A DNA stretch of 64,000 bases from Ciborinia camelliae (taxonomy: Eukaryota > Ascomycota > Leotiomycetes > Helotiales > Sclerotiniaceae), in contig JANPYM010000009.1 in the NCBI GenBank assembly GCA_025890175.1, positions 218,012 to 282,011 of the forward strand. Direction: 5' to 3'. The translations under genes were made by a program, and so were the position numbers. Below, piece by piece: positions 18,073-47,774 of the stretch; positions within the stretch are counted from its first letter, which is position 1, and each line of letters starts with the position of its first letter. The notes under the pieces are model-generated. The model did not search any database and had not been told where the DNA came from. It saw only the letters and a program-made list of their open reading frames with translations.

Positions 18073-18086
18073 TCACCCTCTTCCCG
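18073..18086 (-). promoter_or_regulatory. Polypurine tract of the outer element
   Basis: Directly inside the left LTR the minus strand reads CGGGAAGAGGGTGA, a mostly purine stretch at the place where plus-strand DNA synthesis is primed. It keeps its G residues in an otherwise G-free island, and it sets the orientation of the element. Confidence 0.7.
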
Positions 18087-20399: not shown

Positions 20400-20770
20400 T
20401 TAATTAAAAATAATCTAAACTTTTACAAAATTCATTTTGATATTATCAATTAACAAAATCAAACCTAAAAACTTAATTTTTTAAACAAAGAATTTATATT
20501 TTTTATTATCAATCTATAAATCAGCTTTTTTAAAAATATCAAATATTTGATATATATAATTAATATATTTATTACAACTTTTATTATAAATCAAAATATT
20601 ATTTATATAAATAAATATAAAAACATTTAAAAAATTTCAAAATGTATTATTAATATAATACTAAAATATAATTAATCTATTATATAATTCAAATAATATA
20701 ATTTTGTAACAAAATAATTTAAATTTTATACAAAATATAATTAAATCTATATTTTTTTCGATTTTTATTT
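20400..20770 (-). pseudogene. RIP-destroyed Ty3/gypsy reverse transcriptase
   Basis: Reading the minus strand gives, in order, a counterpart of MPFGLxNxPATFQ in which every change but one fits C-to-T or G-to-A (ILFELYNRLIIF*), then FIFIYINNILIY at about 20,619-20,586 where functional enzymes have the catalytic YxDD (both Asp codons became Asn), and KIKFLGLIL at about 20,478, the FLGxxxS region. The spacing between these blocks matches gypsy reverse transcriptases. Stops replace Gln and Trp codons. The assignment to Ty3/gypsy rather than copia rests on block order and the FLG motif. RNase H and integrase could not be read with certainty. Confidence 0.85.
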
Positions 20771-22305
20771 AAATTTGATTAAAAATATAACAAATATTAA
20801 ATTTAATTATAAATTTTGATTTAATTATTTAAATTAAAATTTTATTAATTAAAAATAAAAAATAAATATTTTTTTTAATAATAAAATTAAATTTATAATA
20901 ATTGATATAAAATTACAATTTGTCTTTAAATTTCTAAATAAACAAAATTAGGAATATAAAAACTATTTTATTAAATTTAATAAAAATTTTTTTAAAATTA
21001 TTATTAATATATTTTTTAATAAAATTTAATTTTTTATTAAATATTTAAAATAATAATATATAATTAAATATATTAAATTTATCAAATTTAATATAATAAT
21101 CGAAATTATTATAAAAAAAAAATTTATTTACTTTACTTTTTTTAAATATATTTAAATAATTATAATAATCGAATAAAATTTTTTTATACAAAAATTTTTT
21201 ATTATTTTGTTTAATCTTTATATTTCATTATTAATATTTTTTGTTTATAATATTTATTATAAAAATAACAAAAATCTAAATATTTCATTATTTTGAAATT
21301 GTTAAAAAAAAAGCAGCATTAATTATATTAATATATAATAAAATTGGATTTATAAAAATAAAAATTAAATTATTATTAAATATAAAAATTTTGATAATCT
21401 TTTATTTCAAAATAATTTTTGATATAAAATATATTATATTATTAATTTTTAAAAATATATCCCTTATCCCTATATTCTTTATCGAAAATATAGGCCTTAA
21501 TTGATTTTTCAAAAATTCGATTTTTGATATATCGGGATACAAATAAAACCTTAATTTGAAAAATACAATTTTTGTTTTTGTATAAATTATAATCCTATAT
21601 TATTATATTTATTTATTCTTTATTAATATTTAATAAAATATATTTATAATATAAAATATTGTAATATTAATATAATTGTATATTTAAATTTAAACGAATA
21701 TTTTTTTATAATTAATTATAACTTTAAAAATTTTATTATTAAAAACCTTTATTTTATATAATCAAAATAAAAATATAAATTTAATTTATTTTGTTTTATA
21801 AATAAATATAACAATAATTTTATTAATAAAATTTTTATTAAAATAATATATATTAAAAAGAATTAATATTAATATCTTTATCCTTTCAAATAATTTATTA
21901 ATAAATTTTGTTACCTTACCTGTAAATATAAATTTAATAAATATAAAACTATAGTTAGTTAATATAAATTAATAAAATTATAATTTTAAAAAATCCTTAA
22001 AATCGAATTATAATTGTATTATAACTTTTAATATATTTAAATCAAAAATTACTTTTTTTTTTATTATAATATAGTTTTATTTAATTTAAATATATTTTTT
22101 TTTATAAAACAATTTTTAATAAAATAATTAATTTTTTTATAAATAAAACAAACACTCTTCACTTACAATTTTATTTATTCAAATATAAAAATTCTAGTTT
22201 TTTTTTTTGAATTTTGAATAGTAAAATTAAAAATATTCTTTTTTCTTTTAATTTTTTTTTTATATTTTAATTTACATTTTTTAATTATATTTAATTATTT
22301 AATAT

Positions 22306-22506
22306 TATTATAATGCTAAAGCATTAAGGTTGAAATATAATATCTTACTAAAAAGCCCTTATATTTATAAAGAGCAAAGCTTTTTATATATATAAAATAA
22401 ATAGTATAATTATATAGCTATACAATTTAACAAAAAGAAATATTTAATATTTTAGGTATAATTTGAAATTTTAGGTATTTTTTTAAATTTATTATAGCAA
22501 ATGTTT
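22306..22506. repeat. Left LTR of the nested element (strongly RIP-mutated)
   Basis: Aligned without gaps to 28,591-28,791. It keeps AGCCCTTATATTTATAAAGAGCAAAGC-like text but has lost nearly all other C and G. The exact ends are uncertain by a few bases: homology extends eight bases outside TGCTA and about seven beyond TAGCA. Confidence 0.88.
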
Positions 22507-25500
22507 TTCGAAAAAAGTTATTAATATTTTTATTAATCGAACTTAAAAATAATTAATAAATTAAAAAAATTAAATATAAAATAATTTTAAATTATTATAA
22601 AAGTTATTATATTAATTTTATATTTATAAATAAATTTATTATAATTAAGATTTTTTATATTTTTTTATTTATTATATTTAAATTTTTATTTTTTATAATA
22701 AATCAAATATTAAATAATTTTTTTATTATAATTAAATATTTGTTTATTAAAAAATTATTTAATTTTTTAATAGTTTAAATTTTGTTTATTATTAATAGTT
22801 TTGTTATATTAAAAGTTGTAATATTTATAAAAATTTTTGTTAGGGTTAATAAATAATTTAAACTATATAATAAAAAATATGGAATGGATATGTTAATAAA
22901 CTAAAATATTAAATTAATAAATTAATTAACTAATTTGTTTGATAATATAAAAAGGATAAATATATTATTATAATAGTTTTTTATTAAATTTTTTTTATAA
23001 AAAAAATATTATATTCTTTATGAAGATGTAATAATATTTAATTTTCAATTTTAAAAAATATAAAATGATAAGATTAATTATATATTTGTTTTATTTTTAT
23101 ATTAATTATATTAATAATATTAAAAATATTAATTTATATAAAAAAAAAAATTGTTTTGGTTAATGATTGTTTATAAAAAAAATTAAAATTAAAATTAAAG
23201 ATAATTTTATTAAATATAAAGTTAATATTAGTTTTTATGGAATTGTTAAAGATAGTTTAAAATTAAAAATAAAGTTTAGGTTATTTTTGTATATTTACAA
23301 GTATTGGGATTAAAAATTAAAAAACGATTTTATAAATAATATTAATTTTTTTATTTATTTTGTTAATTTAAAGATAATATGCAGTATTATAAAAACATTA
23401 TATATTAACATGTAGGAATAATTATTTTTAGAATATAAATAAAAATTTTTTATTACAATTAAAAATAATTATTTTAAATATATTTTAATTTATAAGTTAA
23501 AACTATTTGATAATTATATTTGTTTATTAAATTATAATTTATATAAACTTTTTAGGTATAATTATAATCTTTTTAAATATTTTGTATGTGATGGTAATAT
23601 AGCAATTAAACCCTTTCGCTAAAATTAGCAAAGTAAGGATAAAATTTATAATCAAAATATAAAATAGTGTAGGTGGAATATTAATCGGCTAAAATGTATT
23701 GTATGGAGTATGATAGCGAGTTTAATAAATACAACATTTGGGGTAAAATATTAAAAAAGTACGTAAATATTGATACAATTTGTAAATATAAAAACTACAA
23801 AAAATATAATTATAGGTTTACATAAATTCTGGATATCTCACGGTATTATATTTTATCTGTAAAATTTTTTTGATTATATTAGTTGGTATATATAATCAAA
23901 AAATATTATTATTATATTAAATAAAATTATTTTTGAAATAAAAATTAAATTAAATTATATTATTATTTAATTTTACATTTTTTTTTAATTATAAAATTAT
24001 TATATAAAATATTTTATTCTTTTTATATTCCCGTATTAACTAATCCCAAAAATTTATATTAAATTTAATTAAAATAATAGTATATTAATATTCAACAATG
24101 TAATTAAAATTTAATTCTAAAAACAAAAATAAATGGTCTATATTAGATAATTGGGAAAAAATATTTAATACGATATACTTTTTGCCAAATTTGTAAAAAA
24201 AGAAAAAATCGAATTATTATAAATATATACTAACACATACAAAAGTAAAATTTAAATAATCCATATTTTCAATTTACAAAATTTTCTAATAAACAATATT
24301 AATAATAACTTTATAATTTATAAAGATATAAAGAAAAAAAAAAACTGATTTAATTAAATAATAAATTTTTTAAATTATTTAAATAATATTTGATATCTTA
24401 AATTTTGTAATCTATAATTTTTATTTCACTAAATATAATATATAATTAAAAAATAAAATTAATTAAATATTTATTTTCCTAGATTAATCCCCTTTACGAA
24501 TAACAATTTTATCCTATATATAATAAATTATAATACCAATATTAAATTCAAAAAAAAAAGTTAATATTAATATAAAAAATATGGTTGGTAAAATTTGTAT
24601 ATATAAAAATATTAGGCTATAACAATTTATCCTTAATTATATTAAAGAATTGTTTTTTGTTAGGAATAAAAAAATTGATTTTGTATTTCTTAACAAATCG
24701 TTTTTTAATTGTTTTTAAAAAAAAAGGATTTGTTTTAAAAGGAAAAAAAAAAAATATTTTTAATTATTGTAATAGATTAACAAATGTAGTATAAAAAGGA
24801 ATATATTAATGAAATTATCCAATTAATCTAATAAAATGTTTAAGTTAAGCTAAAAAGATTAAATAATTTAAATTAAAAATAATTTTTATTTTATCCATAA
24901 TAATTGTTATATCGAAACTATTTAAATGCTAATTAAATAAATATACAAATGAAAAAGTAAAGTAATATTTAAATAATTTTAATAAAATATATTTTTTTTA
25001 TAATATATTAAAAAAATATTAAAAATAAAATAAATATTTTTTAAAATTATAAAATTAAATAATAATGTTATTAATATATTTTTAAATAAAATTTTAAAAA
25101 AAATAAAATAATTAATTAATTTATTATTATATAAAAAAAACTAAATTCTTAAATTCTATAATAATAATATTAAATTGTTTTTATTTATAATAAAAAATAA
25201 TAATAAATTTCAAATAATCTTTTACAATTATAAATTATTAATAAAAAAAAGAAATATAATTTATAATAAAAATAAACTTTACATTTACAATCAAATTCAA
25301 TATATCTTATTAAATAAAAATAAAATAAATATCAATAATAATCTCTTAATTAAAATCTTATAAATTAATAATTATTTAATTTTTAAAAAAATATTTCTAT
25401 TTAATTATAAATTATATAACAATAAAAACAAAAGCTTTAAATAATATAATTTTTTTAATTTAAAATATATAATCTATTTTATAAAACAAATTAAATATCT

Positions 25501-28500
25501 AATCAATTATATCGCATTAACAAATATCGATAAAATACATACATTATCCTTTGCATCAAAAACAATTCTACTATCCATCCCAAAATAAAATAATCATCTA
25601 TTTATTCTTTGAAATATTAATAATTGTCCCTATATCATAAAAAATATTATTAAATTTTTGAAAAAAATTAATCAGGTTTTTTATCTAACAAAAAATATTA
25701 GTATTATAAATAACGATACCACTCTCAAATTCGATTTTTTGGTCAATGTTTAATATAAAATCAGAAAGTTTAATATTTTACTTAAATAAAATAAGTTTAA
25801 CAAAAACATTTAAATTCCATACAATTTTCTTATAAAATATATTAAATAAAATAAATACTTTATTATTTATTATATAAACTTTATTAAACCATTAACTATA
25901 AAATATTATAATAAAGCGATTAAAATTATTTTAGATTATAATTTTTCAAATATAAAAATCAAAAACATATAAAAATAAAAATAAAGATTATTATTATTTA
26001 AAATCGAAAAATATATTATAATTTTTATTTTATATAAATTAAATAATTAAATAAAAAATATTATATATAAATATAAATATTATAATAACGATAAATACAA
26101 AATAAAATTATTAAAATGTTTTTTTGATATAAATATTTATTAGGATATTGATTTAATAGATCCTAATTTGAAATAATTTTTTGAAATAATTAACCTAATA
26201 TTGTTTTAAAACCAAAATATTTATACTAATAAATAAATTAATTTTAAATTTTTCTATAAAATAAAACTTGTAAATGATTTTGATTTATTTAGATTTTTTA
26301 GTTTTAATATTTGTTTTGAAAATATATAAATCAAAAACAATATATTAATTAATTGTATAACAATTATTAGTTATACTTTATATTATAAATAATTTCATTA
26401 TTATACAAATTTTTTGTTTTAATAATTTTTGCAAAAAAAATTTAAAATTGATAAATAAAAAAATATAATTAAAATTTCAATAAATAAAAATTGTTTTATT
26501 AATATTTATAAATTATATATAAACTTTTATATAAAAAAAATTTTGATAATTAAATTCGATATTAATTTTAATAATTAAAATGTTAAACTAAACAATTAAA
26601 AAAATTTTCTTAATAATTATAATATATATAAAAAATGGTGGCGAAAGAAAATTAAAAATATTTTTTCTAATTTTAAAAAAATAATTGTTTTATTTGAAAT
26701 AATAAAAAAAACTATTGTTAATTATAAACGTAATTATGTATATTTTGTAGATATAGCGGATTAAAGTTTTAAATAATATAAAATTGTTAATATAATAATC
26801 AAATTTATAATTTTCAATTTTATTATTATTTTAAATAATATTATTAATTTATTAATAATATTTATTTTATTCTTAATCTTCTTTAATTAATTTATCCGTT
26901 TTGTTATTTTCGATATATATACAACCATTATCGAAACCTCTTTAAATCGTTACTTTATTTGAATCGAAAAAAGACTAACCCATTTATTTGGAAAATAATC
27001 AATTAAAATTGTGTTTCATAGAAAAACTTTGAAATTATTATTATTAAAAAGTTTATAAGCGAATATACGAATTGTTTATAAATATATTTTTTTTATTTGG
27101 ATTTATAATAAGCAATATATATTATATAAATAACATTAATAATACTATAAAAAAATTAATAGGTTAAAAAAAATTCGAACAAGGTCCAGATCGAAAAGTA
27201 TAAGAAATCTTGAATTTGTAAAATATTAATAATTTATTTTGAAATTAAAAAAAAAAGTATTCCTCTGAAAAATAAACAAATAAAATATTAATATATTAAA
27301 CTTTTACATTATTTTGTATTTATTTTATATTATTTATAATTTGTTTTATACAAAAGTTTGAAAATATCAAGTTTTATAAAAAATATATATCAAATCAATT
27401 GTCCTAATATTATTACAAAAATAATATAAATAATTTAATAATATTTTTTTTTATTAATTTTAAAATATTAAAATATAATAAAGAATTTATATATTACCAA
27501 ATTTTTAAAAAAATATATTACACATCCATAATCTAAATACCCTTAATATTGATCTACAATATACTAAAATATTCAAAAGATTTATATTACCATCAATAAT
27601 CCTAAACAAAATATTTAATATTATAAAATTTATTAAACACCTCAATAATAAATAATTTAAAACATTTTTAAAAACAAATTTAAAAACTTTTCGATATTTC
27701 ATCTATAATACAATCAAAATATATATTAATTAATAATTTGTTATTTTATCAAATAAATATTTTACTAAAAAAAAAATTGTTAATAATATTACAAACGTTT
27801 ATTTATTTATTAAAATTAAATAATATAATAATTTATTAACAAAAGATATATATATTATAAAAAATTATTTTACTATTATATTTAAAGGTTTTTTTTTTAA
27901 CTAATTTAAAAAAATATTTAAATAAAAATAATTTAATTTAAAAAATTTAACTTTTTGTTTATTTATATTAAAATTCGTAACCTAAAAAAGGATTACAAAT
28001 TATATAAAATTGTTATTAAATAAAATAATTTACATTGGTATTATTGTTTTTGAAAAAAATATAATAAATTTGTTAAAGTTTGAAAAGAAAAAATTTAGTT
28101 TTTTATATATTAAAATTCAATTTTCTATTATAATACAAAAAGTTTTTTTTTGTTTATTAACCTAATCAATATTGTAAATAAAAATAGTTATATTTAAAAT
28201 AAAATAAAAATCGAAAAACCTTTAAAGTTTAATATAAAAATTGTCAATAATAAACTACTATACACAAATTTAATTCCGATTATAAAATAACAAAAACTAA
28301 TACGCAAATTAAATATACAAAAAAAAAATATTGAAAATATCGAATAAAGATTTTATATTAAAAATAAAAATATAAAAAAACAATAAATTTATATATTTAA
28401 AATATAAAAAAAAGATAACTTATTTTTTTTATCTTATACAAATTTTGATTCAAAACGTTTTATATATTTTTATAAAATAAATAAAAATATCAAAAATTTT

Positions 28501-28590
28501 TTTAAATAAATCTTTTTTTAATATAAAAGAAATAAAAAGCTTACTTCTTTTTAATTTATCCTAAATCTTTATACAGAATTTGCTATTATA

Positions 28591-28791
28591 TATTACAATA
28601 TTAAAACATTAAAATTGAAATATAATATTTTATTAAAAAGCCCTTACACCTATAAAAAGCGAAGCCCTTTATATATATAAAATAGATAGTATAGCCGTAT
28701 AGCTGTACAATCTAACGAGGAGAGGTGCCTAATATCTCAGGCGTAGCCTGAGATCTCAGGCACTCTTCTAAATCTACCGTAGCAAATATTT
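28591..28791. repeat. Right LTR of the nested element (lightly mutated)
   Basis: This copy keeps GC-rich text that the left copy lost, including a perfect hairpin CTCAGGC-GTA-GCCTGAG at 28,736-28,752 and a TATA-like run near 28,670. It is the better template for finding relatives. Confidence 0.88.
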
Positions 28792-30604
28792 ATAATTATT
28801 ATATTAGCCTTATATTCCAAATCCTAAATTATTATATATTTATATAAAAAAATTATAATTTGTTTTATATTTTTATTAATTTTGTATCAAAAATTATTAA
28901 TTATAATTTTTTTAATAAATTTAAATTTAGCAAAAAATTATTAGAATTTTTTTTAAAACTAAACAAATAATTATTTGTTTTAAAATAATTTGCAATATTC
29001 AATCTAAATTATTTTAATTTTATTATTATTCTTATAAATTTATATAAAAACTTTGAATATCTTTTTTATTAATATAAAAAGATTTGAATTATTAATTTTA
29101 AATTAAAATACAAAATAAACAACAATTTTATTATTAATTTATAATAATATATATATTATATAATTAATTAATATATAAAAATTATTTATATTTAATTTTT
29201 AAATTATTCGAAATTATTAAAATTTGTATTAAAAAATTTGCTATTTATCTTTATTAATTTTAAACTCGATTGGGTTAAAAAAAATTTATATTAATTAATA
29301 AAAATAAAAACTAATTATAATTGTAACAATTATTTTTTTTATATTTTTTTTAAATTATTAAATAATAATAATAAAACTAATAATTTTTTATTAATATATT
29401 TTTTAAATAATAATAAATTTATTAATCTTTATATTAAAATTAAAAATTTATATATTTTAATTAAAAATAATTAAAGCCCTATCCTTTACAATATTATCAA
29501 AATTAATAATAAAATTATTAATAACTTTGAACTTTTTTTTTAATTTAAAGATTAATATTTTTTGATTATTATAAAATGAAATAAATTTATTATAAATTAT
29601 TATAACATTATTATATTCATAAAATATATTATTTATTTAAACAAACGTAAAAACCAATTATTTTAAACTAAAATTTTTTAATTTTTTAATCTTTTTAAAT
29701 TTTTTTAATTAAAAAATAATATTGGATTTGTTTTTTTTTTAAAAAAAATTACATTAAATATAAACTTTATTATCGTTAATAATATTATTGAATAATAAAA
29801 AAACTATAATAAAACTAAAGCTATATTTGGATACAATATTTTTTATCAACAAATTATAATTATTTTATATCAAAAAAAAAATTTTTAATAATTAAAAAAA
29901 ATATATTTAATTAATTATTATCTTATTAAAAAAATATATTATTTAAAAAAATAGTTTAATTTTAAAATAATTATAAACAAAAATAAATAAAAAAATTATT
30001 TTATTATTAATAAAACAAATTCTCCGTTTTGATTTAAAAATAAATATAAAATTTGTTACAATTTATTCGAAAATAAATATAAATAAATGTTTAGTTAATA
30101 ATATACAAATATAATTAATATTTTAATAAATACCCCGTTATATAAAATCTATCACAATTTGTTTGAAAATAAATATAAATAAATATTTGGCCAATAATTG
30201 TATATTTTGGTAAATACTTTATAATATAAAATTTATTATTATTTAGTAATTTAAATAATTTGTTTATATTAAAATTTTAATTCGTAAAGTTATTATTATT
30301 ATAAATTGTTGCAAATCTGTATTTTATAAAAGTTTTATTATAACATTTTAAAACTGTTTCGTTTTTTAATATATTATAAAAATTTTATTATAATATTTTT
30401 AAATTGTTTTATATAATTATAAAATCGATATTATTATAATTTATTGCAAATCCATACTTTTTTAATTAAAAAGTTAAATATTTATAAATATTTAAATAAT
30501 TATCAAAAAACATTTTTAAAAATATAAATTTTGAAATACAAAATTGTTTTGTAAACTTTTTATATCTTCTACAAAAATATAAAATAAAATAAATATAATT
30601 CTTA

Positions 30605-34232: not shown

Positions 34233-37200
34233 CTGTCTGGATTGGGATTAGGATTAGTAAAGGAAAAGGCGAGATTGTGAGGAGATGGATGAGATGTGAT
34301 GAGATGAGATGGGTGGGAAGGGATGGGTGGGAAGGGAACTTGAATGATTGGAATGTATTATGAATAGCTGAATACCAAGTCGTGATGATATATATTGTGG
34401 ATTTGAATTTGATTGGATCGGTACTGTCTGTCTTTATGGGGATTTGGATGTGGATGTGGATTTGGATTTGCATATATACATACAAGCACTTAAAGAATGG
34501 TTCGGGGTTGGGGATTGGAGGTTCGGGGATGGGGTTTGGGGGTGGGAGATCTTTGGGATCAAAGTATTAAGTTGGTAAGATGGTTGTAGGATTGTTGTAA
34601 TAGGTCGAAGTAGGAAGTAGAGGGAGGACTTATTGATTTTTTGGATTTATGGTTTGAGGTTGGAGGTTTGGGTTGAGGTTAAGGTTGGAAATCTGGTGGT
34701 GAAGGTTGGAAATCTGATGGTTGGAGGTGTTGGGCGAAGTTGTTGGTATTGGGATTGGGATTGGTATTAGCTGAGAGTATTAGCAAGTAGCTAGTAGCCA
34801 TCTCTGATATACCGATAACACTTTCCTTTCCCAGTGTCCCCTCCCCTTTATGCTCGCGAGGTTGTGGGGTGAAGGTGTGGGGTGAAGGTAAGGTAAGGTA
34901 AGGTTAGGTGAGGTTAGGTAAAATGGTATTCATATGTAGGTAGGTATATATATATATCACTCTCTGATTTCGATCTGGATCTGGATCTGGATTCTGATGT
35001 TGATCCCGATTCTTCCTTACTTTCTTTTATTACCTATATATATTAGATTATAAATAGTAGATGTTTACATCTCTAAACTTAATAACCTAATAACTATTAG
35101 CCTAGTAACCTAGTAATTATCAAGCTAGGTAGGTATTCTAGCTGCTCTAGCTGCCCTCAATCACAAAATCAAAATCAAAAGATGAGAGATTATAAAGGGA
35201 GTTAACTATAAATCACCTAGTCATGAATCAAGGAGGAACTCCAGCCCAAATTTCGGTCTAACACCAGCAGCATGTCTATCGACTTCATCGGCTTCATCTT
35301 GTCTTGCCTATAGGCTTCATCTTTCGCTAGCCGAGTTTATCCTAGATTCCTCTTGGAATAATACTCCGATTTTTGTATGGAAGTTTGGGCGTATTTTTGA
35401 AAGAAAGTTGAGAATTGAAGAATGTCTTTTATTGATTTTCTTTTGGTTTTTGGGTTTTTGGATTTTTGGATTTGGAAAATCGAAAATCGAAAATCGAAAA
35501 TTAGAAAGGTGAGAGTGAGTTGAAGTGAGTTATCAATTTCCGCTTTTTAGGAGAAACATTATTAAATCATTCTTCTCTCATATCTTTCCCATCCATTTAG
35601 CAATCGTGTTCTTCCCGAGAGAGAGAGAACACCGTCGCAATTGTCATGGCCTGGACCTCGAACCTTTCGAAGGCACACTCGGGGATCATTTTGAAGGGTA
35701 TCATCCTGAAGGCTATCATAAATGCAATCCTGCCAGTGCTCATCATACCATATTGCAAATTGGGAAATCTCTCCTCTCATCTTATTCATTCTCCATCATC
35801 TCATCATCCATCACGATTGGGATTGGTATTATAATTATATTATCAACAACCCTTTTCGAAGAGATACACACACTCCTTGTAACACAATTTGCAAAAGCGT
35901 GCATCGATGCAAAATCCCTTTTCTAGCTACATCCTCACCCTCACTTTCGCACCACACCACATCTCCAAGTGGAAAATCGCATTATGAGCTTCTACATCCA
36001 TGGTCTCGGTTCTTGTTCTTTCTTCACATGCTGATCCTGTCGCTTTCGACCGACTGTCCACGAAGTTCATTTCGTGCGTCATGTCGTCGCGATGCAGACC
36101 GAGGTGCCGAGAGACGGACGGTTCATGCTAGGATGATTTGATTTGATAGAGTGGTGCTGAGAAATTAGATGATATGGATGCTGCTGCATACTCTGGTTGG
36201 GAATCTTAGATCAACGCAACGTGCGTTTTGAATGATTTACGGAGGCGAAGAGGGGTTTGGGGTTTGGGGCTTGGGGCTTGTTGTTTTTATCTAGTGGATG
36301 GAGTAATGAGGATGGATCTAAGGATCGAGTGAAAGAAGAAGAGAAGAAGAAATTAATGCTAGAGGGGAGGAGAGGTTGGAGGAGTTAGTTATATAAGCGA
36401 GAGAAAGGAAGGAAAAGAATATTTTGTTAATGGAGAAATGGAGTATCCGAGATCATGTATGGGAGGTGGAAAGGAGAGAAAATGAATCAGGTGATATTGG
36501 GGAAGTGCTTTTATCAATAAATGGATGGATGGCACGCGATATCTTTTCGGAAATCACATCACATCATATCGCCCAATTAATCAATTAATGGCAAGACCGT
36601 CCGTTATCGTCATATCCATGGATGGTATCTTTCCTTCACTCGTGAGGCTATGAGATGTGATTCACCGCGGTCGTTGGTAGTGGTGGAGTGGAGTGGAGTG
36701 GGAATAGATAGATGTGTGATTTCAATGATTTCACATCTATGTTCTTTTCATTCATCGGCGAGTATTTCGTGCGAAGTACAAATCATATACATCATACATC
36801 GGAGAAAGAACGTCCGGTATTCGTATTCCGGAATCAGAGACGGTGAGGTAGGTGATTTGATTATATATCAAATATAAAATATGAAATATGAAATTAATCA
36901 TATACATATATACCTTAGATTGGGTACATTTTTCGAGATGCGCTTCGCGCTTCGTGTTTCGGTTCTCGTTTCGGTCTTTGTCTTTGCATCTACTTCATCA
37001 TCCACTTCATCGTCGTCGGTCCAGATGCCTCCTTGCCTTGAACCTCATCAATGAGGGAGGTATACTTTCGGAATTGAATTGATGGGTCCTTACAGTAGAC
37101 GTCTGGATTGTCGTTAGATGATGATTGAGATGATGATTGAGATGATGAGATAAGATGATGGATGGATGTTGTTTTGGAAATTCGTATTTATTGATTGGTA

Positions 37201-38168
37201 TGTATGTTTATTTATTTAGGTGGTAGTTTAGGTGCTGGTTTATTAGTATTTATGATTATGATGATATTAATTGAGAAAGGGCATTGGATTTGGTATGGCA
37301 AGGGGATGGGGATTGGGATGTGAATGTGCATGTAAGGTATCCTTGTGGATGGAAGGGGATGTGGATGGATGGATCTTGACTTCTTGATTTGACTTGACAT
37401 GATTTGTTATTGATGGGGATGGAGATGGAGATGAAGATGGAGATGAAGATGGAATTATTTATGTGGATGGGGATGGATGGGATTGTGGATGAAGATGGAT
37501 ATGGATATGGAATTACCTGTGTAGGTTGGAAGGTTGAAGTTGGAAGGTTATGTTGTTTTTTGCTTTTGGGGTGTGAATATGAATATGGATGAATAGGTAT
37601 ATATAAATCATCTTGATTCATCTCATCTAATGGTGTGGTATGGTATATATTTCTTGAAGTTTATTTTTGGTGGTTGTTCTTTTTTTTTGGTTTTGGATGA
37701 GATTGTATGTGTGTATGTGTTAATCATTAGAGTGTTGCGAATAGCATGGAATGGAATGGAATTGAATTGAATGGGTAGATATTTGGTTGGATTGGAATGG
37801 ATATTTGGTTGGAATTTGGGATTGGGATTGGGAATTAGGAATGGTTTGGTCAATGGTGATGCTGGGGTGGATATGACATGCACTTGAAAGAATGATTTGG
37901 AGTTTACGGTTGAGGGTTTAAGGTTTGAGGGTTGTGAAATGATCTATTAATTTGTATTATAATAGATCTTTTCGAAAAACAACGATTCCTTCAACTTCAG
38001 CTTTAACTTCATAATTCAATATCCAATATCCAACATCCAACATCCAACATTTCAAATCCTATAATATGTAGTGACATCGGTATCGGTAGCTCTTAGAATA
38101 CTAGCGAGTAGCAATCTCTGATATACCGCAAAGTCCCCATTCATACTCGGTTGTCAGGCAAAGTTGCC
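34233..38168. other. Intergenic DNA with repeats and a family relic
   Basis: GGAT/GATG repeats, microsatellite-like GGATTT and AAGATGGAGATG runs and no gene I can defend. A 62-codon plus frame at 35,646 (MAWTSNLSKAHSG...) has an amphipathic stretch but no splice or family support. A relic related to the 3' flank of the CaaX genes is near 34.8 kb, and a 17-base word TACAGTAGACGTCTGGA at 37,091-37,107 recurs at 43,571-43,587. Confidence 0.5.
34775..34870 (-). pseudogene. Relic of the 3' flank of a CaaX-family gene
   Basis: On the minus strand, words such as GGTATATCAGAGAT followed by GGCTACTAGC and ending in AATACTCT match the 3' flank of the first CaaX gene (about 38,086-38,150) in the same order. 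No protein-coding part is recognisable upstream; repeats have replaced it. Confidence 0.45.
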
Positions 38169-38842
38169 TACATCATCGCACAGCAACCTTTGGACTGGAT
38201 GTCAAATACAGTTTGTTAGTATGTATATACTTGTTACTTATGATTATAGATGTGCAGCGTGCTACTTACCTCTCGGCGTTGTGCATCCCTGGTGCGGGAA
38301 TATTGCCCTTCATGAAGACGTTGTCGTCGTCTTTGATCGCGACTATAATTAAATGTTGGATTTTCAAGTTGTCGAACTGCACGTACTCTAGGAGAAAGTT
38401 GTGGATTTGAATATGTCCCCGAATCGCGGGATCCTCGATCTCGACGTTTTTTCTGTGTGGCTCCCCATCTTTGACCTGAAAGTCTATCTGCTCCACGGGG
38501 TCTTGGTTCTTCATCTTCTTCATCTTCTTCATCTTCTTCATCTTCTTCAATTTCTTCAATTTCTTCATCTTGACTAATATTTCTTTGATGTCGAAGATGA
38601 GATCGTGGAAGTGAAGATTGTGAAGATTGTGAAGATTGTCTTCGATGTCCAAGATGAGATCGTGGAAGTGAAGATTGTGAAGATTGTGAAGATTGTCTTT
38701 GATGTCCACGTCCTTGATCTCCACTACCATGTGCTCGAACTGGTCCCATTTTTATCCCAGGTTCTCCAATAGCCCATGTTTCATCGTTGTCATCTATCCC
38801 AAGGATTACAGGTGTTTCTGGTCTTGAGGCCCTTCTGAACAT
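38169..38842 (-). CDS. Charged, repeat-containing protein with predicted lipid-anchored CCAMM tail
   Basis: Exon 1 (38842-38270, 191 codons) and exon 2 (38195-38169, 8 codons and TAG) are separated by a 74-nt phase-0 intron with GTAAGT, a CTAAC branch site and CCAG. The 199-residue product starts MFRRASRPETP, contains two tandem 19-residue copies with QSSQSSQSSLPRSHL (about residues 50-87), a run of about 20 Glu/Asp with Ile (about 93-112) and an Arg-rich C-terminal half, so it is probably disordered. Splicing creates the end SKGCCAMM. CAMM is a CaaX box with Met last, which normally means farnesylation, and the Cys before it could be palmitoylated as in Ras proteins. Without splicing the protein would instead end VSSTLHIYNHK. 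No known domain. The two genes upstream have the same design. Confidence 0.75.
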
Positions 38843-39541
38843 GTTTGATGGATGTTTGATGGATGAATTTGGAAATTTGGGAAGACGGTGAAGTCAGTGT
38901 GCTGTTCTTGGAGTGAGAGGTATTCGAAATCAGATGCGTAAATAGATGGATGGGTATTGCTCAACGTGGGAAGTTGAAGTTAAAGGTAAGAAAGAGGTTT
39001 GGAGTTTCTGGGTGTGGATGGATGGGGTATAAGGGAAACATTATTTTTCCTCCATGTGAGCTATCAAAATCGGTGACTCGAGTCGAGTTTGTTGGGTCGT
39101 TGGGTTGTTGGATCGTTGGGTCCGACTATAGGATAGAATGGAATAGAATAGAATAGAGAAATGAATGAGTATTCGGAATGACTGTTTGAGGAAGAGTCAT
39201 GTCTTTTAATGACGTAGCGTGGAGGAAATGGGATTTCCTTTTTGGGGGGGGAAGGGGAGTGTGGGGGGGGGGAAGAAATGAGAAGGAATGAATGATTTGG
39301 GGATTGGGGATTGGGAGTTTATGAAATGGTCTATTTGTAGGTATTATATTACAGATCGTTCGGAAAAGCAAAGATTATTAAGTATGCAGCGAGATGCTAT
39401 CCAATATCCATCCATATGTAGGCCCAAAACACTAGATAAGTAGAAAGTATCTAACACCTCGCAAAAGTCCTCCCTCGTAGAAATGCAATGAATGCAGCAT
39501 TACCCCCCCTCTATCCTTCCTAAGTAGCCGAGCTCAGTTGC

Positions 39542-39944
39542 CTACATCATCAAACAACATAATCCGCTCCCCTTCTAGCGCAAAAGATTAATCCATCAAT
39601 TTCTTTTGTTTAAAGTGATGGGAGTTATGGATGGAGTATGGAGGATATCTTACCCCGTCATTCTTCTTCTTCTTCAACTTCACATGCCCTGATGTGGGAA
39701 TGGAAAATGTTTCCGGGCGTTCGGTATCATCATTCTCCTCCTCCTCCTTCTTCTGTGTCTTCTGTGTCTTATCTCCTCCTTTCCTTTTCGTGGCCTTTCT
39801 CTTGCGTGAATGTTTTTTTCTTTTCCCTTGCGAGGTTGTAGACTTCTTCACATGCGGCGCTGGATCTTTGAGCTTCTTTGGTTGTTTTTCTTTCTTGGAG
39901 GTGGAAGTGGGATGTTGGTGTGATTTTTTTCGTGATGGTGGCAT
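39542..39944 (-). CDS. Lys-rich small protein with predicted lipid-anchored CCLMM tail
   Basis: Exon 1 (39944-39654, 97 codons) and exon 2 (39574-39542, 10 codons and TAG) are joined across a 79-nt phase-0 intron (GTAAGA...GCTAG). The 107-residue product starts MPPSRKKSHQHP, is packed with Lys/Arg clusters (KRKKHSRKRKATKRKGG), has an acidic KEEEENDD patch, and ends KGSGLCCLMM. CLMM is a CaaX box expected to be farnesylated, with an extra Cys before it. Exon 2 and the bases after its stop (TGATGATGTAGGCAAC) match those of the neighbour at 38.2 kb, although the bodies of the proteins do not resemble each other. A polybasic protein with a prenyl tail would be expected to bind acidic inner membranes; that is inference. 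Reading through the intron gives a soluble end, HHFKQKKLMD. Confidence 0.75.
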
Positions 39945-40099
39945 GGTTGATGGTTGGTTGATGGATGATGAATGTTTGATGAATGTGGATGTGGATGGGA
40001 TGTTTGATGGACAGTTGATGAATGGATGTGAATGTAGATGGAGATGTAACTCTAAACTTCTTCGATGTAGAAGGCTGGTTTGAAAAAATGATGACTGTT

Positions 40100-40515
40100 T
40101 GGGATTGAATGATTCATGATTATTGTTGAACTCCTACTTTGACAATTGAACCTTGTTATCGGGGCTTTTACTCGTAGGATGTAATGCGGAATGTAGAATC
40201 AATGCTCTAGGTTTAGGAGAGGGTATAGTTTGTTGGTATTTTTATATTCGGAGGATAAAGTTGATTGTTTTTGTTCTATGAAGAGCTTGCAGTTGGGGAT
40301 CATTGTTCGTTTTCGAGTATATGATAATAGTATTGTTCTACGAGGGCATCCAGTTGATGATAATTGTTAGGCTTCTATTCCTACTGGACTTCTATTCCTA
40401 AAATCTAATCTCAATTTTTAAGCTCCTGCTCCTATGATATAGCCTCAATGTCTGAACTTATGCCTGAATTTCTATTCCTACAGTCTAGCCTCAATCTTCT
40501 ACCCAAAGAATCCAT
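40100..40515 (-). pseudogene. Decayed relic related to the CaaX gene family
   Basis: Words on the minus strand (GGTAGAAGATTGAGGCTAGA, TAGAAGCCTAACAATTAT, GTAGAACAATACTA) match, in the same order, the relic near 43.5 kb that lies just ahead of a damaged Cys-Cys tail. Here the tail itself is missing. Part of the block has expanded into short degenerate repeats (CTTCTATTCCTA-type). Confidence 0.4.
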
Positions 40516-40956
40516 CAATCATTGGAACTAGGACGGCTATAATGATATGATATGATCTATATCATTTGATTTGATATTCATTTCACCTATGTATCTCTCA
40601 AGTATAAGGCATTCATTCATTCATTCAATTTTGCATAGAAAAAAGGCATTCAAAAAGCAACGATTATCCGATTATTATAACTACCTACCTACATACAACC
40701 CAACTATATTATATCCAAAACGTATATGTCCAATCCCATAAATACATAGGTAGTAAGATGACCATCCATCAAAAACTCATCCTCATCCTCCTCTCTTCTC
40801 CATTAAATATTACTTCTCTATCCCATTTCTATCTCTATTCGTCGAGGAATATATCATATCATATCATATAATATCCTCTCCACCATCCATCCACATTACT
40901 AACATAAAATACACATTAGCATCATCTATATCCATCATCTATATCCATCCTCCCAT

Positions 40957-42741
40957 CTACATCGCCAAACAACAACAAGATTCCTTTGCCTTCCCATCTG
41001 TATTTTCGCTTCCCTAGGTGGTGAATATAAATCAGCATGTTCTCTGCATTCACTACGAGTTGTAGTAAAACAACTCCATGTTACTTACAGGTACTACTCC
41101 CTTCTCACATAGTTCGGAATTACCATGCGGATGCGGATTTATTTCAGAGGTGTTTGAATCCCTAAGTGCTTGCGGGTTTCCTGAATTAGCGAGCTGGTTG
41201 GGATGCCTTTTTTGAAGCTTGCCTTGAGATCGCTGGGGATCTTGGGCGCGATAAGTGGAAGATTGGAAGGTCGAGTGGTGTTGTGATAGGTTCGGAGGTT
41301 GGGAATTTGTTAGGTTTGATTGATTGGGTCGTTCTTCAAAAGACTTTGGTACCGGTTTTCTCCCGGAATATTCTACAGCTCGCTGTTTTGAATAAATTAT
41401 ACCCTGCTGGAGAACATCTTCTGGCGACACCTCGAATCTCTCTAGAAGCCCATTAGGATTCGACGTTTTCATGACACCATTTTGTCTAAACGGTGGACCA
41501 TTCAGGTATCGTGGACTTATGAATCCTCCTTTCCCATCCCCGTCAAGTCTCGGCAAAAATTCGCCAGGCTCCTTGATATAATCCATGTCACTTTCCTTGA
41601 ACCTCGACTCTCCTTGTTTCGGAGGCTGCTGCATGTTGGGTTGAGGATTCGTGGCATACTTTCGCGCGATAGGTAATACGGTTATAGCATTTTTGGGAGC
41701 CCTGGTCTCGGATATCCTGTCGATCTCTTGTTGTGGTGGCAAATTGTCGGGTCGCAATGGCTTTTTTGCGAGTCGAGGATTCATGGCATGTTCTTGTGCT
41801 ATAGATGATTCGAGCTTATTAATTTTCGAGAAATCCAAGTTAGGGAACCTTTCATGCCCTCGTCGTTCTCGCAAATTTTCGAGTGGAGGTGGCTTGCTTG
41901 CGAGTCGAAGATTCATGTCATTGTCTCGCGCGATGAATGAATTGGACATGGCATTTTGACCATTTTGGTGCGAGGTGTCGACTTTGTGTTGGGATTTGAA
42001 TGCACTCAAGTTTCCTCCCCCATATCCGTCAGATCTCGTTAAACATGGGTTGGGCTTATGGCCATCATCTACGACATCCTCTTGGCTGAAAATTTCTGTG
42101 AACCTCGACTGTCCTGGTGTTCGAGGCTGGATATCAGGTCGAGCTGCCTTGCTTGCAGGTTGAGGATTCGTGTCATATTTTTGCACGATGAGTGACTCGG
42201 ACATGTCATTTGGTCGACTTTGGTTCGTGACGATGACTTGGTGTTGGGCTGGTCGGATAGCCTTGTTGTCTTCTGGGAGTAGCTTTCTCTTTACTTGTTG
42301 GGATTTAGATGGATTCAGCCCTGCATTTTGTTGTTCGTTACTCGGGCGAGCCTCGACTTTTGCTCGAGTATTGGTTTGTGAGACTTGTTGGTCCTGAGGA
42401 TAAACCGACCCAGAGCTAGCAGCATGTTGTTCTTGGTTCCCAGGGGGAGCTTCGAGTCTTGCTCGAAGATTGACTCGTGAAGCTGTCATGTTTTCTTCCT
42501 TTCCCAATTTTGTTTCAAATTCATAAGCACTCGGCTCAGGGTCCATGGAGAACGCAGCAGTTGGTTCGTAGTTCTTCCCGGGACCTTCGAGTCCTGCTCG
42601 AGTATTGGTTTGTGAGGCTGGCATGTTTCCTGGCTTCCTCAATACTTGTCCAGATTCAAAAGCACTCGGTCCAGCTCTTCCGTTTTCGCTACCTGGGGGA
42701 GCGTTGGATTCTGCCCCAGTATTTTTTCGAAAGAGTGGCAT
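40957..42741 (-). CDS. Large repeat-built protein with predicted lipid-anchored CCCLAM tail
   Basis: Exon 1 (42741-41089, 551 codons) and exon 2 (41013-40957, 18 codons and TAG) flank a 75-nt phase-0 intron (GTAAGT...CCTAG). The product has 569 residues. I chose the ATG at 42,741 because its start, MPLFRKNTGAES, resembles the basic starts of the two smaller family genes; an in-frame ATG at 42,798 would add 19 residues. The body contains two sets of degenerate tandem repeats: four units of the type SQTNTRAxxEAPPGNEQ..AA (about residues 4-150), then four units of the type SxxIA..x.MNPRLASKP..P (about 185-385). The spliced end is KESCCCLAM: a CaaX box (CLAM) preceded by two more Cys. The unspliced end would be VSNMELFYYNS. 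No known domain is recognised. The polar, repeat-rich body is probably disordered. Confidence 0.75.
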
Positions 42742-43424
42742 ATTGGTTTCAAGGTATCTAGACTGGAGTTTAAACGAGGCAGACGCGAAGAACGGCAATA
42801 GTCAGTATAGTAGCTAAGCTAGGCCAGGTTAAAATGTGTTGAGATATTTGGAGCGAGTTATTTGGAGCAAGGGAGCTGCGCAAGAATATTTGTTATTCCC
42901 GATAAACGTTTGGAAAGTTGGAGTAGTTGATTTTGAATTGTGAAATTCAGATGTTTTGTTTGGAGTTTACACAAGTAAGTAACTGTACAACGGGAAAAGA
43001 AAGAGGATGCGAAACTAAAATTGAAACTACCATGTTCCTGAATATGGTGACTATACTGTATGAGTCGTATTATTTTTTGGGGGTTGGTTCAGCCACACTT
43101 GTGAGTGAGTCTTGGAGTCATATCATATCATCCTGGTTGAGTTTTGCGGAAAAACATGATTTCTTGGGGATGGGAAAAGAGAAAAAATTGAGATTTTGAA
43201 AATTTAATGCGGTTTTGTGGTGGGTGGAAGGGTTTATTTGTAGAAGTAGAAGTCTTTCGAAGATCAACGATGAATTGTTATACACCCTGATGACATCCGA
43301 AACGTATATGATATGGCGAAACTTATGTGCCGAAATTCTATGGTATCAGTAACTCGAATAATATCAGCATCTCGAGATATTGCTGAGTGCTGTCCTCGAT
43401 GAAAATATAGCATCGGCACTACCC

Positions 43425-43587
43425 AGGCTCAGTAGCCTATGTCATCGAATAAGAGCAGCATCTAGTATTGTTCTGCCTCATTGTTGGGCTTCTACCCCTA
43501 CCCATAGAATCTAGCCTCAATGTTCTACCACGAATCATACAGTCGACCATCATTTTTGTAGCCCAAATCGTACAGTAGACGTCTGGA
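43425..43587 (-). pseudogene. CaaX-family relic with a damaged Cys-Cys tail
   Basis: On the minus strand a TGCTGC...ATGACATAG followed by GCTACTGAG aligns with TGTTGT...ATGATGTAG and GCAACTGAG of the gene at 39.5 kb. Six extra bases and an ATG-to-ACA change turn the end into CCSYSMT, which is not a CaaX box. Upstream text matches the relic at 40.1-40.5 kb. The 17-base word TACAGTAGACGTCTGGA marks its upstream edge and recurs at 37,091. Confidence 0.5.
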
Positions 43588-45108
43588 CCAAGTGATCGAA
43601 AGATGTCTTATTTGATTCCACTGCAAGGAGGTACGTTTGATAACTTTATACACTCGTGACATTAAAAATATTGAGTCTGCATCTCAAAATCCCTCTCTTG
43701 ACCCAAAGCTTGAGGACCTATAGTTATTTGATCCCAAGCATCCTAAAGATTGACTCAGTTAGTCGACTCAAACCTAGATCTAGAAGTAACAAATACTCAC
43801 CCAATTGAAATCCCCCGGTACATCAACCTGTCCTCCAAAAGTTCCAAAGATCCCTCCAGTATCAAACATATTCTCCGGGATCATACTTGTATTCAAATTA
43901 TCTCCAATCTCCGGACTAATCATCGGTATAGGTATATTTGTATACATTGGTACCACATCAGAAATCGCTTCGGCAGCATCCACATTATTAGTAGCAATAG
44001 GAGGTTGTTTAATCGGATGCGGATTAAGGTTCAACACCACGTTATTCTGAACCTTTGCCGTCAACCTCCTAATCAAACTCGTAAGGATACTCACTGCACG
44101 TTTAGCATCAATGCACTCCCCTGCAATCTCACCCCAGATATCTCTCGCTCTCACCAAGGCATCCAATTTCGTCCTTTCACCAACAGCACAATAGCTCATC
44201 CCCCCAGATCTCGGATCAGTTCGCTGATTCGTATTGAGATCTAAACACATAATCATAGCGGCCATCAAAAAATTATGATTGGTAATGGAAAATTGCCACC
44301 ATTTCATATGCTGCAGAATTCCACCTGGTTGACTCGCTTCATGCATGGAAATTTGGATGTTCAAGAGAGCCATGGAGGAGGAAACGCACATTCGTCTTGA
44401 AAACCAACGAAATTCATCGGGGTTTTCGGGGAGCGTCGCGTTCCAGTATTTGCGATGGAGGAGGAGGATGCCTTTGTAGTAGAATTTTTGAAGGAAGAAT
44501 TTTTCCGTTATGGCGGCGGGGGTTTCATTCTTCATTTGTGACAAGGTGCCGAGTTGCAGATGAGTGGGGATTATATCGTGATATTTTTTGAGCATTTCGT
44601 CGAGTTTGATTACTTCGATGTAAGGTTGGGGTTCGACGATGTGCAGAAATTCAATGACGTAGCCGTAGGCGCGCATAATGGCAAATTTTACTCATTGGTA
44701 ACAATTGCATTTGTTTTCTGTATCGGGTCGCGATGGGTGGGAGAACTGTCATGTCTTCGAAGAGCTCATCTACACGTAGGTTGCGGGGTTCTTTGGTATC
44801 GCATTCTGCGAATTTGATGGATTTGGGTAGACCAATTTGAACGGAGAAGAGCAACCTACAGCATATTGTTAACATGAAGAGGCATTGTTCAATATGCTCA
44901 ATAGTTAGACCCTGGTCTTCCGAAAGACCATGTCACCCAAGCATTTAGGTTAACCTCATGTGTTTTGCTTGACGAAACTATAGATGGAGGTTTACCAATT
45001 TTCAAGAGATTTTTGATCAATGAATGGAAAATCTGTAGAAACAAGACGACTTTTATAAACATTATCAATATCAAAGTATAGTACTAGGCTTGATTGATTG
45101 GTGTTAAT

Positions 45109-45207
45109 GGGGGCAAGCCCCCAAACCCCCTTTGCTCGCTACGCTCGAAGCTTGAAGCTTTATTTCTTTCCGAAATAGTCGGCCTCCACGGTAGCGTCCT
45201 CCGGAGG
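45109..45207. repeat. GC-rich palindromic insertion inside an intron of the broken regulator
   Basis: GGGGGCAAGCCCCC (45,109-45,122), then a GCTCGCTACGCTCG stem, AGCTTGAAGCTT and CCTCCGGAGG (45,198-45,207) lie in the intron between 45,238 and 44,856. At 383 nt this intron is far longer than the 55-80 nt typical here. Clustered hairpins of this kind look like a small mobile palindrome (MITE-like or GC-cluster-like). Confidence 0.5.
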
Positions 45208-45653
45208 GCCAGCGGAGCGTCAAATGAAAACGACTTACTCATGTTGTGTAACAATAACCCAAACTCGGCGTCTCATTTCACCCTCAAATACACTCAGACC
45301 AGCATGCTGTTCCGGATCACGATGATATCCTTGTTGTAAAGCTAGACGCATAATAGTTCCAGATAAAAGCCAAGTACCCATATCACCATCTCGTTCATAT
45401 GAATATTCAATGAACGCATAGCATAACAGTGTTTCTACCATCAAATAAACAGGTAGGTCTTGTAATATCGGCTATAACCAAACATTGCGCTGTATAAAGA
45501 TCCGTGATTGTCGCCAATGTATCTTGATATTCAGGGGGCGTATCTTTGTTGCGAGCATATGATTGTAACAAGCCTACCGCAAAAGAGAGGGTGTCGAAAA
45601 AGGTTATAAATAAGCTATTAATAGTACTGTAAAAACCTACTTATAATTAAGGT

Positions 45654-46329
45654 TCGTAGATTCGTAGATTCGTAGGTTCGTAGGATCGGAGGGAGGAGGT
45701 AGGATTGGAGGGAGGAGGTAGGTTCGTAGATTCGTAGATTCGTAGATTCGTAGGTTCGTAGGTTCGTAGGTTCGTAGGTTCGTAGGTTCGTAGGTTCGTA
45801 GGTTCGTAGGTTCGTAGGTTCGTAGGTTCGTAGGTTCGTAGGTTCGTAGGTTCGTAGGTTCGTAGGGAGGAGGTAGGATTGGAGGGAGGAGGTAGGGGTT
45901 CGTAGGTTCGTAGATTCGTAGATTCGTAGGATCGGAGGGAGGAGGTAGGATTGGAGGGAGGAGGTAGGTTCGGAAGAAGGAATTGTATGATTTTTAGGTT
46001 TTTAGATTCGTAGGTTCGTAGAATCGGAGGGAGGAGGTAGGATTGGAGGGAGGAGGGAGAAGGGAGAAGGTAGGTTCGTAGGTTCGTAGGTTCGTAGGTT
46101 CGTAGGTTCGTAGGTTCGTAGGTTCGTAGGATTGGAGGGAGGAGGTAGGTTCGGAGGAAGGAATCGTACGATTTTTAGGTTTTTAGATTCGTAGGATCGG
46201 AGGGAGGAGGTAGGTTCGTAGATTCGTAGATTCGTAGATTCGTAGATTCGTAGGATCGGAGGGAGGAGGTAGATTCGTAGGTTCGTAGGTTCGTAGGTTT
46301 GTAGGTTTTTAGGTTTTTAGGTTCGTAGA
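45654..46329. repeat. Composite minisatellite, GTTCGTAG units and GGAGGGAGGAGGTAG blocks
   Basis: Long runs of the octamer GTTCGTAG (about 18 in a row from 45,750) alternate with copies of GATTGGAGGGAGGAGG. It sits between the zinc-cluster exon and the remaining domain of the broken regulator and separates them. Confidence 0.9.
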
Positions 46330-47091
46330 TTCGGAAGTGGGGTAGATATATAGACCTCGCTGTCGCTACCCCTGTCAACCATCCAATTAAATCACTTAAT
46401 TCTGAAAACTTCAACAACTTCTTCAAAATTGCTTATTTCGGATCGGGCTTATCAATTTTCCGATCAAAACCTACTACTTTATATATATATATTATAAATT
46501 TGAAGGATTTCGAGCTGGAAAACCAACGGAAAAGCACACTTAATCAATTACTACTATATCATCTATCATCTACTACTATACTATAAATCTATAGACTACC
46601 ATGATAGACTATAGTCTATTATGATAGTCTATAGACTATAACGTTTCTTATTTTTGGTCTAGCTTTCTGTAATAGGAAATCTTCCACATTAGGAAATGGA
46701 AGCGAGATTCCTCATACAAAATTTTATACCGAAGTTTATCCACACGGAACCTACATTACTCCGTGTTATAGCCATACACATTGTTGAAAAGTATAGACCA
46801 ATCCGGATAATTCTAGCTTTGTGAGGTTCTTCCCAAAAGCGTTCAATCTATGGATAGAATAGGTCAGTCGGTCATCAAACTACAAGTAGTGATTGATATA
46901 TCTCCTCTCGCAATGCAATTCTGGCACGGTTTCTGTCTATTGCATTTTAATTTTCTCGCCCTACAAGCTTGACAAGAAAGGGGTATACGACGTCGGGCGA
47001 GTTTGGTACCTGTGGGTTTATTTTGATGTCCATTAAGTCGCTCTCCACGCTCTCCCCGCCCTCGCTGAGCAGAATGTTTTGTATTATACAT

Positions 47092-47774
47092 GATTCAGTT
47101 GGCCATGAGAGAGTCAAAGGAATAGATGATCATCTTGTGGTCAAGTGAATATGTGAGATGGTGAGATGGATACATATGCTGTGAAATGTAAGCAACCTGG
47201 AAGTCAGCAAAAGTCAGCATGTTGCAATTCAGCCCCGAAATGGTTGTTGATAATTGGTTGAAACGGGGCTTGGTTGCTGATATTGCTGAGTCATCATGCG
47301 GAATTTTATTGTAAAAAGGGAAAGAAACATTCGGCCGAACCCGTCGGAGGAAGTATTAGAAATCCTCCTGCCTACTACCACTCATTCTTTATTTGATAAT
47401 TTTAGAAAATCCCAACTCAAATCCTCAATCAACAAAACTATCATCTCTCTTCTTACGTTGCTAAATAATTGAAGCTGTTATCCAAATCATTGAAATAGAG
47501 ACAGACTTTGAAGTTGGTGTAAAAGCACAACACAACACCACAGGTACAGGTCTCTTCTAGTCCATTACCCCTGTATTAGGCTCGATCCGCTTCCCTACCC
47601 TACCCCCTTCCCTGTTGCTCACGTCAACATTCACGTCAACACCTATCTTTTCAACATATATCCTATCTTCATTATCCGTTGTTCCTTTCGAATATATCAA
47701 GTCCTATGTCATAGTACCAATTTTCAAACCAAACTGTCAAGCTTCGAGGGACGTTTTTTCACCGGCTATCCAAA
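47092..47774. promoter_or_regulatory. Divergent intergenic region between two regulators
   Basis: About 680 bp lie between the outward-pointing starts of the broken (minus) and intact (plus) Zn2Cys6 genes. A self-complementary-looking pair of blocks, GTTGATAATTGGTTGAAACGGGGCTTGG and GTTGCTGATATTGCTGAG-type words, is present; no defined CGG-N-CCG operator stands out. It probably held both promoters. Confidence 0.45.

Follow-up and report, generated by a model that had tools for sequence, protein, structure and literature searches.

A putative local family of CaaX-tailed, disordered proteins in Ciborinia camelliae

Three successive minus-strand genes of Ciborinia camelliae, the camellia flower blight fungus, here called g1, g2 and g3, appear from their sequences to form a local tandem family in which the 3' ends are conserved and the protein bodies are unalignable. 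The genes lie in a 64-kb window (C27:218012-282011 of a 46.2-Mb, 27-contig genome), which is the whole stretch of DNA analyzed and to which all coordinates refer. We consider it probable (roughly 0.6) that g1-g3 are lineage-restricted tandem paralogues encoding farnesylated, probably palmitoylated disordered proteins that act as membrane tethers like TeaR/Mod5, with bodies diverged past alignment. A disordered protein with a farnesyl/palmitoyl tail is a known kind; what is unusual here is the constancy of the anchor and 3' end on bodies that cannot be aligned.

According to this explanation, tandem duplication in the C. camelliae lineage would have produced the protein-coding paralogues, and splicing out one small intron from each pre-mRNA would bring the last exon, which encodes C(C)C-a-a-M, directly behind a disordered body. 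The CaaX cysteine would then be farnesylated (methionine at X suits farnesyltransferase), after which the three terminal residues would be cleaved and that cysteine methylated. The one or two preceding cysteines would be palmitoylated, as in fungal RasA. We infer that the protein would then sit on the cytosolic side of a membrane, with the plasma membrane as the most likely site, where the body may serve as a floppy tether or scaffold. The tail and 3' end would have been retained as the bodies were altered.

Gene anatomy and predicted lipid tails

Each gene has a single phase-0 intron of GTAAG...YAG form, 75 (g1), 79 (g2) or 75 (g3) nucleotides (nt) long, ahead of a last exon of 27, 33 or 57 nt, and spliced translation agrees with the initial annotation on this arrangement. 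The intron positions given there hold for g2 and g3, while the g1 intron occupies 38195-38269 rather than 38196-38269. In all three introns a YTRAY branch-like site lies 17-20 nt ahead of the acceptor, that of g1 being of the classical form. The predicted spliced products (199, 107 and 569 amino acids [aa] for g1, g2 and g3) end in SKGCCAMM, KGSGLCCLMM and GSENTDGKAKESCCCLAM, the last closing with KESCCCLAM, which bears out the earlier description of CaaX tails with one or two extra cysteines. The features are as follows.

37699..38185, minus strand: g1 tail codons and 3' flank, homologous to the corresponding region of g2
38168..38194, minus strand: g1 last exon, predicted SKGCCAMM-stop; CaaX box CAMM plus one extra Cys
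38195..38269, minus strand: g1 intron, phase 0, 75 nt, GTAAGT, CTAAC 20 nt before CAG
38270..38842, minus strand: g1 exon 1, open reading frame (ORF) of 191 codons with RQSSQSSQSSLPRSHL repeats, D/E-rich and R-rich stretches and no cysteine; includes a tandem repeat (57-nt unit, 2.2 copies)
39085..39559, minus strand: g2 tail codons and 3' flank, homologous to g1 and to relic x
39542..39574, minus strand: g2 last exon, predicted KGSGLCCLMM-stop; CaaX box CLMM plus one extra Cys
39575..39653, minus strand: g2 intron, phase 0, 79 nt, GTAAGA, TTGAT 20 nt before TAG
39654..39944, minus strand: g2 exon 1, 97 codons, Lys/Glu-rich, predicted from the ORF and splicing
40630..40733, minus strand: g3 3'-flank stretch, matching the relic x 3' flank at 43237-43334
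40957..41013, minus strand: g3 last exon, predicted GSENTDGKAKESCCCLAM-stop; CaaX box CLAM plus two extra Cys
41014..41088, minus strand: g3 intron, phase 0, 75 nt, GTAAGT, CTGAT 17 nt before TAG
41089..42741, minus strand: g3 exon 1, ORF of 551 codons with partly diverged in-frame repeats
43437..43463, minus strand: relic x, a decayed fourth tail reading RCCSYSMT-stop, with no CaaX box, identified from alignments and translation

The bodies are of disordered composition, as first proposed: by this compositional measure, the Uversky distance is 0.27 for g1, 0.53 for g2 and 0.12 for g3, compared with 0.15 for an Smr protein, 0.08 for TeaR, 0.05 for Maf1, -0.06 for AKR and -0.24 for an FDH exon, so that the contrast between g3 and partly folded proteins is small. 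Cysteine is absent from g1 and g2 outside the tail pair and occurs twice in g3 outside its tail. The short basic starts MFRR, MPPSRKK and MPLFRK that had been pointed out are present, though too short for testing.

The tails match what is known of lipidated substrates. Yeast farnesyltransferase takes most CXXX sequences, the restrictive residues being D, E, K or R at a2 and K, P or R at X, and methionine at X was favorable in a screen of this enzyme with a Ras reporter (PMC10320760); CAMM, CLMM and CLAM are free of the restrictive residues named there. The extra cysteines beside the CaaX cysteine (CC in g1 and g2, CCC in g3) correspond to a Ras-type dual-lipid tail: in Aspergillus fumigatus RasA, the paired cysteines adjoining the CaaX box carry palmitate and hold the protein at the plasma membrane (PMC5879109). 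Judged by their tails, the g1-g3 products would be farnesylated and probably palmitoylated.

Alternatively, the intron may act as a switch, with retention giving soluble proteins and splicing giving membrane-bound ones. An in-frame stop comes early in each intron, such that retention would add 11 (g1), 21 (g2) or 11 (g3) residues before termination. However, at the stop frequency of the window (6.1% per codon) a 75-nt phase-0 intron would hold a stop by chance about four-fifths of the time, and we regard such a switch as unlikely.

Clustering of the tails and coding signal

The combination of gene anatomy and tail is concentrated at this locus. Both strands were scanned for a first exon open for 90 or more codons from ATG, a GTRNG donor, an intron of 45-110 nt with a branch site, a YAG acceptor and a last exon of at most 60 nt. 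The window yielded 11 candidate last exons (one each for g2 and g3, both CCxxM, and three for g1), and the three that encode CCxxM are exactly those of g1-g3. None of the 38 candidates from 113 comparison loci elsewhere in the genome (550,012 bases, both strands) was CCxxM or even CaaX-like (3/11 versus 0/38 for CCxxM; Fisher p=0.009), and since 110 of these loci were picked for a CCxxM-stop motif, the control is biased against the finding.

The motif by itself is near background, CCxxM-TAG occurring 31 times genome-wide against 23 for a reversed control pattern. Three of the 31 are g1-g3, on one strand and within 2.8 kb, and any three of 31 motifs fell this close in only 9 of 200,000 random placements. 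CCxxM-TRA occurs 98 times against 40 for the control, with many low-complexity matches in the former set. CCxMM-TAG has three matches genome-wide, two of them in this cluster, and none for the control; the remaining one (L004) was rejected, as no gene can plausibly be read on its strand.

A genome search for CCxxM last exons behind a phase-0 intron, as the initial annotation had proposed, finds g1-g3 and no others among the sites examined. We examined 114 of 129 CCxxM-stop sites, of which 6 were dropped for an inner stop and 108 had none; the other 15 were left out for an inner stop or for repetitive or repeated letters. Outside g1-g3, none of the 108 sites has a short last exon preceded by a phase-0 intron and an upstream ORF of 90 codons or longer, the nearest being Ykt6 (phase 1, 46 codons from the nearest ATG).

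At the stop frequency of the window, the chance of an open frame is about 1e-15 for 552 codons, 7e-6 for 191 and 0.002 for 97. Furthermore, the annotated frame gives the best codon log-odds in g1 (0.27) and g3 (0.21), compared with 0.24 for the training genes scored on themselves.

Kinship, rival readings and surroundings

Homology between g1 and g2 begins at the tail codons and continues into the 3' flank. Over about 480 nt the alignment contains 301 matches, 136 mismatches and 88 gap letters (z=24.5), and the 3' flank alone gives z=10.1, or, with low complexity masked, 11.1 and a score above all 200 shuffles; dust-filtered blastn returned just one 58-nt piece (E=1.4e-4). Relic x, upstream of g3, extends this kinship: with low complexity masked, its 3' flank resembles those of g2 (z=6.2, above all 200 shuffles) and g1 (z=3.1, reached by 1 of 200), and it also matches that of g3 (z=7.6, 0 of 200; masked z=3.1, 3 of 200). 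The masked 3' flanks of g1 and g3 (103 of 200 shuffles) and of g2 and g3 (25 of 200) are not significantly similar. An ATC[GT]TTG-type element follows the stop codon by 182, 167, 293 and 166 nt in g1, g2, g3 and x, respectively, but it was spotted by viewing the alignments and is not an independent test. Directly ahead of the x tail, a 62-nt stretch resembles part of the spacer between g3 and g2 (masked z=8.0), and no body exon was recognized in the short space before that tail.

The bodies, by contrast, show no alignable homology (z 0.9-1.6, scores reached by 16-35 of 200 shuffles), and they differ in type and in length (191, 97 and 551 codons in g1, g2 and g3). The word 'unrelated', used of the bodies in the initial annotation, is right for them but does not extend to the genes, which share homologous 3' ends. 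Since a non-coding flank remains alignable between g1 and g2 and the bodies do not, the bodies either changed faster than the flank or were replaced. An apparent similarity of the 5' regions (z 3.5-4.7) was rejected, having been traced to the 3' flank of the neighboring gene or to CATC-type repeats.

The g3 body contains diverged repeats, in frame in all five pairs inspected. In four pairs (116 codons, partly overlapping), differences at codon positions 1, 2 and 3 number 33, 40 and 18, so that 18 of 91 fall at the third position, and nonsynonymous differences (pN 0.297) exceed synonymous ones (pS 0.144; with counts rounded, Fisher p=0.009). This excess points, on a small sample, to diversifying selection. 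Repeat-induced point mutation (RIP) was rejected as the source of the differences, which comprise 45 transitions and 46 transversions.

Several results weigh against the tandem-paralogue explanation. The introns of g1-g3 are not homologous by alignment (z -0.3 to 0.8), and the immediate 5' flanks (150 nt) share only a CATC-type low-complexity likeness, with nothing left once masked; this makes whole-gene duplication less likely and tail capture more likely, and the overall explanation slightly weaker. The tail of g3 is only weakly similar to that of g2 (z 2.6, 5 of 200 shuffles; masked 1.7, 13 of 200), and g3, linked chiefly via relic x, appears from these alignments to be the least securely tied member. 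One of the four g3 repeat pairs has no excess of amino acid change. With alanine at a2, CLAM is a less typical box and no classical strong substrate. As for coding signal, synonymous codon choice favors none of the g1-g3 frames; g2, the weakest of the three genes (short at 97 codons, repetitive and Lys/Glu-rich), obtains a better codon score when a different frame of the same strand is read, and its opposite strand is also open. Finally, the protein collection searched contains g3 only in an unspliced 562-aa form and lacks g1, such that the underlying gene calling left g3 unspliced and passed over g1.

The last of these points, together with the synonymous codon scores, would be consistent with the tails being chance readings, the true proteins being unspliced (202, 118 and 562 aa for g1, g2 and g3) or there being no gene at g1 and g2. 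We consider this improbable given the good splice and branch sites, the concentration of CCxxM among the last exons of the window, and the onset of g1-g2 homology at the tail codons.

Two further readings, both of which fall within the favored explanation, concern how one kind of tail came to end different bodies. The first, to which we give close to even odds, is that whole genes were duplicated in tandem and that the disordered bodies, without being exchanged, diverged very fast under relaxed or diversifying selection, the tail being kept as the main functional constraint. The excess of amino acid-changing differences in the g3 repeats, which is not attributable to RIP, is consistent with this scenario, as is the ease with which low-complexity repeats such as those of g1 expand and contract. 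It fits less well with bodies that cannot be aligned beside a g1-g2 3' end in which 301 of 437 aligned letters, tail included, are identical, with the differences in body length and type, or with the blank masked 5' flanks, which whole-gene duplication should have copied.

Alternatively, and more tentatively, a 3' module (acceptor, CCxxM exon and 3' flank) may have been duplicated and come to serve unrelated bodies. A precedent is KRAS4A, whose membrane-targeting exon was captured from its paralogue NRAS according to a preprint (PMC9882654). Such tail capture would account for homology that runs from the tail codons into the 3' flank beside unalignable bodies, introns and masked 5' flanks, and for relic x, a tail-like 3' module with no recognized body. 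On the other hand, genome searches found no tail-less copy of a body: that of g3 occurs at one place and that of g1 has two short, low-complexity DNA matches (the g2 body was not searched). These searches are weak, however. Apart from the query sequences themselves, those made with the g1 and g2 3' modules and relic x yielded just two 37-nt matches, and since the search with the g1 module missed that of g2, diverged copies elsewhere could escape. The shared exon-intron-tail architecture noted at first is supported, but a modular system is one of two readings of the unalignable bodies, fast divergence being the other.

A more far-reaching proposal, and a doubtful one, is that this is a diversity-generating locus in which the lipid-anchor exon and 3' end stay constant and bodies are replaced or selected to change, perhaps in self/non-self recognition or in conflict with the host or a parasite, with the intron as a possible membrane switch.

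To its left, the cluster is flanked by a plus-strand zinc-dehydrogenase gene (about 32.1-34.2 kb; Pfam domain, extent by our own reading) and to its right by what we take to be a broken zinc-cluster transcription factor gene on the minus strand (43661-47100), the longest ORF of which has no Pfam match. Minisatellite arrays of AGGTTCGT type (45650-46333) split parts of this remnant, and an identical 16-nt TACAGTAGACGTCTGG lies in one orientation on either side of the cluster (37091-37106 and 43571-43586). Six successive 2-kb bins at 18001-30000 have a G+C content of 7.5-11.4%, the rest of the window being mostly at 34-47%, and contain no ORF of 120 aa; we read this region as an extreme A+T island, centromere-like or a heavily RIP-mutated repeat. 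Elsewhere in the genome, a 5.8S rRNA-like sequence (L117, C12:671681-671832; 85 bits) looks mutated and is possibly a RIP-damaged copy of ribosomal DNA.

Relatives and known systems with similar tails

Homologues of g1-g3 were sought among proteins, domains and the literature. In protein searches with g1 and g3 (g2 was not searched), g3 matched only itself and g1 had no match at E<=1; the collection does contain proteins of Sclerotinia, Botrytis, Monilinia and Stromatinia, as a TeaR search showed, but the search requires shared 5-residue words and fast-changing relatives may escape it. Pfam gave nothing above any family cut-off for g1, g2 or g3 exon 1 (three sub-cut-off matches for g1), PADLOC had no match above its cut-off for exon 1 of g1 and g3, and the same was true of the PDB for g3 exon 1. 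In the titles and abstract openings of the literature searched, no account of such a CaaX-tailed disordered tandem family was found.

If the favored explanation is right, g1-g3 would offer a clear case for the origin of new membrane-tethered proteins and the recruitment of a tail exon to new bodies, and a family that changes locally would contrast with the farnesyl-tailed disordered proteins of TeaR/Mod5 type, which are conserved genes. More generally, a gene catalogue can overlook a lipid anchor where a tiny last exon stays unspliced.

CCxxM tails are normal in this genome, where they end known membrane-anchored proteins, and the Ras-like pattern first noted in g1-g3 is indeed of the same kind. 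The tail occurs on proteins that we take to be Ras (L064, CCCLIM) and Ykt6 (L030, CCVAM), on a G-gamma subunit (L100, CCLVM; PF00631 in both exon pieces), on an Smr/DUF1771 protein (L080, CCAVM) and on TeaR (L096, CCVIM; 100% identical to NHQ30_005310 of C. camelliae, with several UniRef matches that bear this name). In addition, two unlinked small proteins (L060 and L105, tails CCVVM and CCAIM) that start with MC...CGH or similar, with several cysteines, basic C-terminal halves and no Pfam family, form another apparent CaaX-tailed group.

By analogy, TeaR/Mod5 may be the closest functional model for g1-g3. Mod5 has been described as a prenylated anchor that holds Tea1 at the cortex (PMC11602027), and TeaR as a cell-end marker in the sterol-rich apical membrane (PMC2728830); prenylation terms were not found in the accessible text of one Mod5 paper (PMC3094757). 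Like g1-g3, these proteins combine a body of disordered composition, a CC-a-a-M end and no Pfam domain, and the TeaR of this genome is similar in size to g3. The tail design is therefore not new in itself, contrary to what had been supposed. However, TeaR is widely conserved (1578 matches), its tail belongs to an exon whose frame stays open for 500 codons or more, and no TeaR protein appeared at E<=1 in the g1 and g3 searches, a result of database searching rather than of pairwise comparison.

Other proteins share single elements of the design. The Ras of this genome, of RasA type, resembles g3 in having two cysteines besides that of the CaaX box (CCCLIM versus CCCLAM), but it carries a GTPase domain. 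Ykt6 has its tail on a short 41-nt last exon after a small intron, as in g1-g3, though the intron is phase 1; Ykt6 is a folded longin SNARE. KRAS4A and KRAS4B also have a CaaX membrane-targeting tail on its own last exon with a phase-0 intron ahead, as described in the preprint (PMC9882654), but they are animal GTPases, for which alternative splicing is described.

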